NCBI RefSeq assembly: GCF_030269365.1
Contig: NZ_BSTF01000005.1
Coordinates: 248,001-312,000, forward strand
Length of the DNA stretch: 64,000 nucleotides
Source: Lentzea sp. NBRC 102530
GTDB taxonomy: Bacteria; Actinomycetota; Actinomycetes; Mycobacteriales; Pseudonocardiaceae
Direction: 5' to 3'
The stretch's first letter is position 1. Each line of letters opens with the position of its first letter. Below, in pieces: positions 20,199-22,173 of this stretch. The notes beneath the pieces were generated by a model. It searched no databases and was not told the DNA's origin. It saw nothing but the letters and a program-made list of their open reading frames with translations. A program made the translations under genes and the position numbers.

Positions 20199-20930
20199 GT
20201 GACGTTCACACTCCTCCCCGCTGTTGACGTGGCCGACGGTCGTGCCGTCCGGCTCGTGCAGGGCGAAGCCGGTACCGAGACGAACTACGGCGAGCCGCTC
20301 GACGCGGCCCTGCAGTGGCAGCGCGACGGGGCGGAGTGGATCCATCTCGTCGACCTCGACGCGGCGTTCGGCCGCGGCTCCAACCGCGAACTGATCGCGC
20401 GCGTCGTCGGCGAACTCGACGTGAAGGTGGAGCTGTCCGGCGGCATCCGCGACGACGCCTCCCTCGAGGCGGCCCTCGGCACCGGTTGCGCCCGCGTGAA
20501 CCTCGGCACCGCCGCGCTCGAAGACCCGGAGTGGTGCGCGAAGGCGCTGGCCGCGTACGGCGAGAAGATCGCCGTGGGCCTCGACGTCCGCATCACCGAG
20601 CAGGGCCACCGCGTGAAGGGCCGCGGCTGGACGTCGGACGGCGGCGACCTCTGGGAGGTCCTCGACCGCCTCGACCGCGACGGCTGCACCCGCTACGTCG
20701 TCACGGACGTGTCGAAGGACGGCACGCTCACCGGCCCGAACCTCGACCTGCTGCGCGAGGTCTGCGCCCGCACCGACGCCCCGGTCATCGCGTCCGGCGG
20801 CGTGTCCACTGTGGACGACCTGGTGGCCCTGGCCGCGCTGTCCCGCGACGGCGTCGAGGGTTCCATCATCGGCAAGGCCCTGTACGCCGGCGCGTTCACG
20901 CTCCCGGAAGCACTCGCTGCGGTCCGTTGA
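20199..20930 (+). CDS. priA: Bifunctional HisA/TrpF isomerase (PriA)
   Basis: A 243-aa TIM barrel. It isomerises ProFAR in histidine synthesis; in actinobacteria lacking trpF the same enzyme isomerises phosphoribosyl anthranilate for tryptophan. Seen here are [18 protein letters not shown] with the catalytic Asp10, [40 protein letters not shown] and [16 protein letters not shown] with the second catalytic Asp. The [16 protein letters not shown] region is typical of PriA rather than enterobacterial HisA. trpE, trpC, trpB and trpA are present nearby and trpF is not, which supports dual function. Confidence 0.93.
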
Positions 20931-21597
20931 CGACCGACTCGATGTGAGCGGCCGCGGCCGCGTGCGTCACACCCGTGTTGTGGAGCACGTCGGCCGCGGT
21001 CCCGTCGGCCTCCAGCAGCACCCCGAGCAGGATGTGCTCGGTGCCGATGAACATGTGGCCCATCCGCAACGCCTCGCGCACGGCCAGTTCGAGCGCCTTC
21101 TTGCAGTGCGTGGTGTACGGCTGCTTCTCCGGCCGTTGCTTGGCCTCGGCGTCGAGCCGGTTGAGGGTCGCGATGCGCGTGCTGCCGTCACCTGATTCCA
21201 GCTTCGCGATCGTCTTGGCCGCGAGCCCCGCCGACTCGTCGAGCAACCCGAGCAGCAGGTGCTCGGTGCCGATCCGCTCGCTGAACCGCGCGTGGTGCCG
21301 CGCCAGCGCGATGACCCGCCGCGACCGCTGCGTGTAGCGCTCCATCGTCGGCTTGCCGAGCTCCGGCGACTCCTTCGGCACGAACCGCTTCTGCGCCGCC
21401 TGCTTCGTGACGCCGAGGCTCTCCCCGATCTCGGCCCAGCTCGCCCCACCCCGCCGCGCCTCGTCCACGAAGTGACCGATCAGGTGGTCGCCGAGCTCGC
21501 TCAGCTGACCGCTCATCTCGACGGCCTTGGTCAGGCGTACGAGCGCGTCGTCGGCCTCCTGGGCGACGGTGACGATGAGGTCGGTCAACTGGATCAT
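20896..21597 (-). CDS. Helix-turn-helix regulator with two Clp N-terminal repeats
   Basis: A 233-aa protein. Residues about 50-72 ([23 protein letters not shown]) form a helix-turn-helix. Two Clp-N type repeats follow, each with the family phrase: [12 protein letters not shown] near 110 and [12 protein letters not shown] near 183. Clp-N domains bind adaptor or substrate proteins for ClpC/ClpA, but there is no ATPase here. It probably binds DNA and responds to protein quality or ClpC. The ATG lies 6 bases after TAGAGT, and two palindromes sit exactly over its -10 and -35, which implies autoregulation. The 3' end overlaps hisA by 35 bases. Confidence 0.8.
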
Positions 21598-21599
21598 GC

Positions 21600-21793
21600 G
21601 TCAACTCTAGGTTGACATCATGTCGATCGTCAACTTTGGGTTGACGATGACAACGTTGTCTTCGGTGCGCAAACCTTTGGCATGTCCATGTTGACGACCC
21701 ACGTCAACGTTGATTGAACGCAGTCAACGTTGAGCCGACATTGACCAGTCCACTCAACGTTGACCCGGTGTTGACGACTCAACTCAAGCTTGA
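21600..21793. repeat. Operator array of TCAAC/GTTGA palindromes
   Basis: Seven dyads occur in under 200 bases. GTCAAC-N5-GTTGAC is at 21600-21616 and 21629-21645. GACAACGTTGTC is at 21649-21660. TCAACGTTGA is at 21704-21713, 21724-21733 and 21754-21763. TCAAGCTTGA is at 21784-21793. Single arms lie between them (21690-21695, 21741-21746, 21770-21775). The last four centres are 20, 30 and 30 bases apart, so they face the same side of the helix. The first two cover the -10 (TAGAGT, 21609-21604) and -35 (TTGACG, 21633-21628) of the helix-turn-helix/Clp-N gene. Confidence 0.8.
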
Positions 21794-22173
21794 TCGGCGG
21801 GTGCGGTGATGCGGATGCCGACCGATCCGGTCCGCCCGCGCCGCACCTTGCTGCCGAAGACCGTGACCCACCCGAACAGGCCGTACTTCTTCGAGATGCG
21901 CGCCCGGACGTCGTCGCTGGCGTCGTCGTCCAGCAACACGGCGTGCGCCGGCACCGACGGGCCCTGGGGGTTGCCGCGGACGTCGCACGGGCCGACCTCG
22001 ACGGTCCCGCTGCGCCGGATGCGCTTGACCTTCCCGCTGTCCCGCGCGCTCCAGGCGTAGATCACGCCGTCGTTCTCGCCGGCGACGACCCAGACCGGCG
22101 TCGGCACCGCGGTGCCGTCCTTGCGGAACGTCGTCAGCAGCAGGTACTTGCCCTCGCCCAAGTCGCTGATCAT
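21784..22173 (-). CDS. PPOX-class F420-dependent oxidoreductase family protein
   Basis: A 129-aa split-barrel flavin/F420-binding protein. The family pattern is visible: [50 protein letters not shown] and [10 protein letters not shown]. Such proteins are actinobacterial and bind F420 or FMN; the substrate is unknown. Its ATG lies 8 bases after TAGGCT. The final codons overlap the outermost palindrome of the operator array, so transcription of this gene runs into the array. Confidence 0.85.

Follow-up and report, generated by a model that had tools for sequence, protein, structure and literature searches.

The window, that is, the whole stretch of 64,000 nucleotides of Lentzea sp. NBRC 102530 that was analysed, carries on its minus strand a gene for a protein of 233 amino acids, and sites of two kinds lie between this gene and the gene upstream of it. 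The genes and the elements next to the start codon are as follows.

20896..21597, minus: clpC2 ortholog, 233 aa, start codon 21597-21595; product with a dimerisation/HTH part at about residues 1-75 (N-terminal) and a double Clp_N at about residues 85-225
21599..21617, minus: proximal ClpC2 operator, TGTCAAC-N5-GTTGACG on the gene strand, over the -10 (TAGAGT)
21604..21633, minus: predicted sigma-70 type promoter TTGACG-18-TAGAGT (promoter scan: one found against a mean of 0.0 in shuffles)
21628..21646, minus: distal ClpC2 operator, CGTCAAC-N5-GTTGACG, containing the -35 (TTGACG); 14 of 14 fixed letters
21784..22173, minus: upstream gene, 129 aa, with a weak pyridoxamine-phosphate-oxidase-like match (PNPOx_N, E 5.6e-4, below the curated cut-off)

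ClpC2 and its operators

Clp_N is found in the 233-residue reading frame by Pfam in two stretches (E 1.6e-18). The earlier note had read the product as a helix-turn-helix (HTH) fused to two Clp_N domains, and the double Clp_N is borne out by Pfam, the HTH being weak by profile (matches below cut-off at about residues 48-72). In a phmmer search of solved structures, residues 2-63 aligned with 8ADA, the N-terminal fragment of Mycobacterium tuberculosis ClpC2 (Rv2667; E 1.6e-14), and the C-terminal part matched ClpC1 and ClpC2 domains. The protein has the N-terminal homology to ClpC2 4-72 (8ADA) and a double Clp_N without the AAA+ ATPase module, since it stops at residue 233. An AlphaFold model built with 25 sequences (mean pLDDT 85.7, pTM 0.61, residues 76-83 below 50) puts helices 54-61 and 65-72 in the position of the HTH. 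With this model, Foldseek matched the C-terminal part to ClpC1 NTD structures, including lassomycin complexes, and to the ClpC2 C-domain; 8ADA was absent among the best 50 of 257 matches. The published dimer salt bridge D46-R57 corresponds to D37 and R48, and the published C-domain arginines R185/R189 to R174 and R178, by a numbering that we infer from the alignment offset to 8ADA; all are invariant in 25/25 aligned sequences. Judged by its sequence, the window protein is a ClpC2 ortholog, and the link to ClpC supposed earlier holds in this form. ClpC2 orthologs were found at E 1e-40 in 146 of 200 genomes of the family.

In mycobacteria, ClpC2 represses its own promoter and cyclomarin relieves the repression, according to the portion of Taylor et al. 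2023 (PMC10030653) drawn on here. The same portion describes ClpC2 as an antibiotic sponge that takes up antibiotic directed at the ClpC1 protease, and gives its operator as CGTCAAC-n5-GTTGACG, located 1-2 bases 5' of the ORF; in many species a second copy covers the -35, and the transcript is putatively leaderless. Both operator form and position are found at the window locus. The proximal operator has 13 of the 14 fixed letters (an outermost T instead of C) and ends one base ahead of the clpC2 start codon; the distal one lies 29 bp upstream of it, the TCAAC-N5-GTTGA inverted repeats of the two occupying 21601-21615 and 21630-21644. A transcript from the predicted promoter would be leaderless or nearly so. 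Dyads had been placed earlier over the -10 and -35: sites are indeed there, but their geometry is TCAAC-N5-GTTGA and not that of TCAACGTTGA dyads.

The likeness to mycobacterial ClpC2 (Rv2667; M. tuberculosis and M. smegmatis), as far as the portion of PMC10030653 drawn on here describes it, thus covers the domain order with an 8ADA-like N-domain and a Clp_N C-domain, the residues of the dimer pair and the C-domain arginines (placed by offset), and the layout of GTCAAC-N5-GTTGAC just before the start with a second copy over the -35 and a leaderless arrangement. The ClpC2 autorepression core of this locus is an already known system. Since the autorepressor has been published (PMC10030653, same portion), the central claim of novelty in the earlier note, that no system of this kind had been described, falls.

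The double operator is kept far beyond the window. Two exact TCAAC-N5-GTTGA repeats were found in 37 of 39 clpC2 promoters and one in the other two, and all 39 have two N5 sites if a changed outer arm base is accepted; the spacing is 29 bp in 38 promoters and 28 bp in one. These 39 are the window and 38 of 40 collected loci, with L128 (a gene fragment) and L136 omitted; by eye, L136, on a Gordonia contig, has two N5 sites too. In a wider set, read by eye, 26 of 29 loci have two exact N5 sites and three (L194, L195, L204) have one exact and one changed; this set is the best 30 loci of the 146-genome search, less L205, which was left unread, and many of its members are the same Lentzea and relatives.

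The published work credits the C-terminal domain of ClpC2 with DNA contact, and 8ADA is a proteolytic fragment (both from the portion of PMC10030653 drawn on here). The 8ADA chain ends ...IGKSMGV, directly before the HTH recognition helix, and the segment that follows, TKQAAQKRF in the window protein, is among the most conserved parts of ClpC2. Because the fragment stops short of the recognition helix and the next segment is so well conserved, the DNA is most likely read by the N-terminal HTH (helices 54-61 and 65-72); the effect of the C-domain arginines in the paper may be indirect or additional. A related HTH (phmmer E 5.1e-5, residues 38-76) occurs in the RelI antitoxin of M. tuberculosis (9SDC), a short antitoxin which, in the part of PMC13284704 drawn on, lacks Clp_N, unlike the window ClpC2. 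No toxin gene was noticed next to clpC2 in the window.

Other genes of the same genome are related to clpC2. At G000:C19:157787-158415 (L138/L006, minus strand), a small HTH gene is followed by a separate Clp_N gene, and two TCAAC-N4-GTTGA repeats lie 27 bp apart before the HTH start; on its sequence, this pair is a split ClpC2 relative with an operator spacer one base shorter. A further HTH like the ClpC2 N-domain (E 8.2e-4) is at G000:C6:511090-511275 (L139), divergent beside what by eye is an Hsp20-like reading frame. At and around G000:C9:259177-259575 (L004, minus strand) there is a protein of 221 aa with an RHH-like N-end, CcdA-like at a score below cut-off, joined to a double Clp_N.

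An array of a second motif upstream of the operators

Between the distal operator and the upstream gene lie further repeats, none with a strand assigned.

21646..21660: palindrome GATGACAACGTTGTC, which includes GACAACGTTGTC
21647..21783: lineage-specific array, from the upstream stop codon to the distal operator
21685..21694: array dyad TCCATGTTGA, a two-mismatch relative of TCAACGTTGA
21704..21713: array dyad TCAACGTTGA, exact
21724..21733: array dyad TCAACGTTGA, exact
21735..21744: decayed array dyad (TCAATGTCGG on the minus strand), seen by eye, dividing a 30-bp gap into 11 + 19
21754..21763: array dyad TCAACGTTGA, exact
21784..21793: variant dyad TCAAGCTTGA, within the final codons of the upstream gene and including its stop codon

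The 139 bp from the upstream stop codon to the distal operator hold four dyads of the form TCNAYRTNGA against 0.04 expected (200 shuffles). The whole window contains 38 matches to TCAACGTTGA within two mismatches, with 17.7 expected, and none of 100 shuffles reached that number; two-mismatch relatives stand at 21606, 21630, 21650, 21685 and 21784. The dyad distances of 20, 30 and 30 given in the earlier note are correct, and another of 19 precedes them. Its last dyad, at 21784-21793, does contain the stop codon of the upstream gene. The two-mismatch relative at 21650-21659 differs from the earlier description in belonging to another palindrome, GATGACAACGTTGTC. We take this palindrome to be similar to LacI-family operators. 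Its part GACAACGTTGTC recurs in 12 of 14 Lentzea arrays and is absent from L010 and from the array of L. indica. The array was rejected as an RNA element or terminator: Rfam gave one match at the locus, at chance level (E 0.14, far below the gathering score), and the terminator scan found none there.

The supposition that one motif fills the gap proved half right: the repeats are real, but they are of two different motifs, N5 operators and an N0 array. Array dyads are zero-spaced with a looser third base (TCNAYRTNGA), whereas the operators carry a five-base spacer. In the 14 arrays, TCAAY-N0-RTTGA occurs 49 times and the N5 form twice; in the 39 promoters, exact TCAAC-N5-GTTGA occurs 76 times and N0 twice. 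Among 140 array dyads, 86 have A at base 3 and 77 have T at base 8. Operator arms keep A at base 3 (a relaxed search fits 39/39 promoters with A), and in 37/39 the TCAAC and GTTGA arms of the two operators are all exact. The array dyads and the ClpC2 operators are two separate motifs, whatever protein reads them.

An array was found in 14 of 24 genomes of the Lentzea genus, with a gap of 123-425 bp from stop codon to distal operator and 4-13 TCNAYRTNGA dyads; the 14 arrays have 133 dyads in total against 0.9 expected from shuffles. It is an extra feature with respect to mycobacterial ClpC2, for which the portion of PMC10030653 drawn on here does not mention it. The searches of open-access literature found no description of the array, and a search with the letters TCAACGTTGA gave no bacterial-operator paper among the matches listed. 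The commonest dyad distances in the genus are 19 (43 pairs), 30 (27) and 11 (25). Of nine helical periods tried, 10 fitted best (0.62) and 10.5 poorly (0.15). Strict helical phasing was dropped: the placement of the dyads on one helix face is not maintained across the genus.

In the remaining 10 genomes, the gap ranges from a 22-base overlap to about 37 bases, no dyad was found past the upstream stop codon and the N5 operators are kept; one of these, NEAU-D7, retains a dyad across the stop codon. The exact array dyad TCAAYRTTGA is also missing from the 330 bp upstream of all 16 clpC2 orthologs of other genera. The array looked for beside orthologs, as the earlier note had proposed, is thus present in 14/24 Lentzea-genus genomes but in 0/16 of other genera. 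Orthologs with no repeats upstream, named there as a refutation, do exist as far as the array is concerned (10/24 and 16/16), but not for the two N5 operators.

Where the array is present, identity between species is 86% (1333/1543) at dyad positions and 61% (1489/2432) in spacers, in 18 directed comparisons from 9 hand-chosen species pairs that are not independent; the difference is possibly inflated, because the aligner is free to pair one repeat with any other, a misalignment in favour of this outcome. The gene tree was calculated from 26 of 41 rows (L128, L133, L136 and 12 Saccharothrix/Umezawaea rows omitted). Array presence takes five changes on the best tree and 4-6 on bootstrap trees, three being forced by well supported branches; a single clade of array bearers was rejected (p-AU 7.5e-39). 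In some array-free Lentzea, the distal operator overlaps the upstream stop codon, as in the outgroups, which fits their never having had an array. Other array-free forms (L. terrae, NEAU-D7) resemble deletions. The history is either one gain with repeated losses or several gains.

The same dyad at other loci

A genome search for such clusters had been proposed earlier. Exact TCAACGTTGA occurs 12 times in the own genome (3 in the reversed-pattern control), three of them in the clpC2 array. Clusters of at least three dyads occupy only 3 places, window included, in a 464-kb sample chosen partly to contain known sites. A pervasive genome repeat was rejected on this count. Among the places with dyad clusters in the own genome are the upstream side of a citrate synthase pair, the interior of a ferredoxin-reductase-like coding sequence, the region preceding an NmrA-like gene and a convergent gap; of these names, citrate synthase alone was verified by profile. 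The first three places recur with the same spacing in 5/5 other genomes (G001-G005) and the convergent-gap cluster in 4/5, its dyads changing, all taken from among the matches listed.

The dyad also stands before genes for HTH-citrate synthases (L090, L208-L221). The exact form TCAAYRTTGA lies at -160 to +15 of 12 of 14 such genes (3/3 in the Lentzea genus, 9/11 in others); the remaining 55,531 bases of the citrate synthase loci contain no copy. This is a small set: a match at the chosen cut-off came from 14 of 60 genomes in the family. The array shares this 10-bp dyad and has three exact copies of it in the window. The citrate synthase sites differ in holding one or two dyads, doubled 15 bp apart in 5/14 loci, and no distance of 15 is found among the array pairs. 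Dyad spacing varies by place: 15 at citrate synthase, 19/11 at clpC2, and 19 + 15 or 25 elsewhere, so no single cooperative geometry is evident. Since citrate synthase promoters of several genera share the dyad, it is most likely the operator of something other than ClpC2. As a guess, the citrate synthase might read it through its own HTH, a natural candidate.

Some individual places deserve mention. The three dyads inside the ferredoxin-reductase-like sequence (L091 1855-1898; G000:C25:11354-11397; spacing 19 + 15) have counterparts in five further Lentzea genomes, where one dyad is sometimes changed and the reading frames differ by eye. In a gap that separates convergent reading frames (L146 1501; G000:C29:66370-66383), the perfect 18-bp palindrome GATGACAACGTTGTCATC adjoins a run of GTTGA/ATTGA repeats and resembles the core of the clpC2 array. 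Another, TACGTCAACGTTGACGTA, stands before a reading frame that is LacI-like by eye (L038; G000:C6:273690-273707) and is probably an ordinary LacI-type operator.

Control of clpC2 and its possible ligand

The locus would probably be explained by the ClpC2 autorepression switch together with a separate, added control platform. Dimers of ClpC2 on the two TCAAC-N5-GTTGA operators would cover the -10 and -35 and hold clpC2 off. With a ClpC1-directed peptide or an unfolded protein in its Clp_N domain, ClpC2 would leave the DNA, and the extra ClpC2 made would soak up the ligand and spare ClpC1. The release and sponge steps are carried over to Lentzea because of the orthology and the operator identity; they were published for mycobacteria with cyclomarin (portion of PMC10030653 drawn on here). 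The TCNAYRTNGA array, present in part of Lentzea, is most likely a platform added to this autorepression for another dimeric regulator, which would tune or insulate clpC2 transcription and perhaps is the one acting at HTH-citrate synthase promoters. That clpC2 in part of Lentzea is under a second regulator which reads TCNAYRTNGA arrays and otherwise controls central-metabolism genes, such as those of HTH-citrate synthases, is a tentative idea and on balance doubtful.

With two unrelated readers, the half-site letters TCAAC/GTTGA common to operators and array would be a coincidence, which counts against a separate regulator. The same letters speak for coverage of the array by ClpC2 itself, nucleating at the two N5 operators and spreading over the TCAACGTTGA dyads cooperatively or as a filament, much as the earlier note proposed. 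The array also adjoins the operators in 14/24 genomes, and the N4 repeats standing twice before the related HTH gene of the same genome indicate that HTHs of this family may tolerate spacers of different length. However, arms with no spacer are half a turn apart and not one turn, base 3 is frequently C or G in array arms where operator arms keep A, dyads occur at loci without a link to ClpC2, and the 10 array-free genomes retain their operators. Coating of the array by this one protein is thus quite unlikely.

An unlikely reading of a different sort takes the array for a non-functional, fast-changing repeat, a decayed minisatellite or inserted element in a permissive gap. It agrees with the number of changes on the gene tree (five on the best tree, 4-6 on bootstrap trees, three forced) and the rejection of one clade, in the 26/41 rows used, with the array length of 123-425 bp and its commonest distances of 19, 30 and 11, and with similar dyads in a convergent gap and within a coding sequence. 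It agrees poorly with dyads that are kept as spacers drift (given the caveat of misalignment), with the rarity of clusters of at least three dyads in the partly preselected 464 kb, and with conservation of the same dyad at citrate synthase promoters across genera. Far less probable still is binding of the array by the RHH-Clp_N protein of the same genome (C9), by which two DNA-binding Clp_N proteins would control one gene. Such a fusion exists (Clp_N E 9.4e-19; CcdA-like N-end E 7.8e-4, below cut-off), and 10-bp palindromes 11 bp apart suit the RHH style of binding. RHH regulators are usually self-controlling, but the 500 bases before its own gene have no dyad, and this candidate was rejected for that reason. 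The reading preferred here remains autorepression by ClpC2 with an added platform for another regulator.

The ligand of the Lentzea protein may differ from that of the mycobacterial one. In place of the cyclomarin-gripping F96 and F172 of ClpC2, the window protein has M85 and Y161; this bears on the ligand and not on the autorepressor class. At the positions of ClpC1 F2/F80, each of the 10 core Lentzea-genus ClpC2 rows, window included, carries M or T at the first and Y at the second; of the 15 remaining aligned rows, 12 carry phenylalanine at both. ClpC1 of the own genome keeps both F2 and F80. Mycobacterial ClpC2 and ClpC1 hold cyclomarin with phenylalanine (portion of PMC10030653 drawn on here), in contrast to the core Lentzea rows. 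Among the matched ClpC1 structures, PDB titles mention F2Y and F80Y together with cyclomarin. ClpC1 R21, which by title is K in the lassomycin complex 8IBP, corresponds to R104 in the window ClpC2. The absence of the phenylalanines suggests, at most, that the ClpC2 sensor was retuned in the Lentzea lineage. Lassomycin, a ClpC1 inhibitor, is assigned to Lentzea kentuckyensis by a table in the part of PMC6784204 drawn on, and the clpC2 of this species (L115) has an array. A lasso-peptide link to the array itself was rejected: Transglut_core3 (PF13471), a stand-in for the lasso B2 enzyme that is not specific to it, occurs in 17 of 24 genomes (9/14 with and 8/10 without an array), without association. 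The lassomycin link is a plausible, putative reason for Lentzea to refine clpC2.

The ClpC2 self-repression layout, described before in other species, now takes in Lentzea and its relatives, where the double operator is almost invariant; the N-terminal HTH, not the C-domain, is indicated as the DNA reader. The dyad array is a new addition to this known core. It is recognised as a second, separate operator array, carried by some species and missing from close relatives, which gives a natural experiment: relatives with and without the array can be compared directly. If the second regulator does belong to central metabolism, proteostasis and carbon state would meet at one clpC2 promoter.
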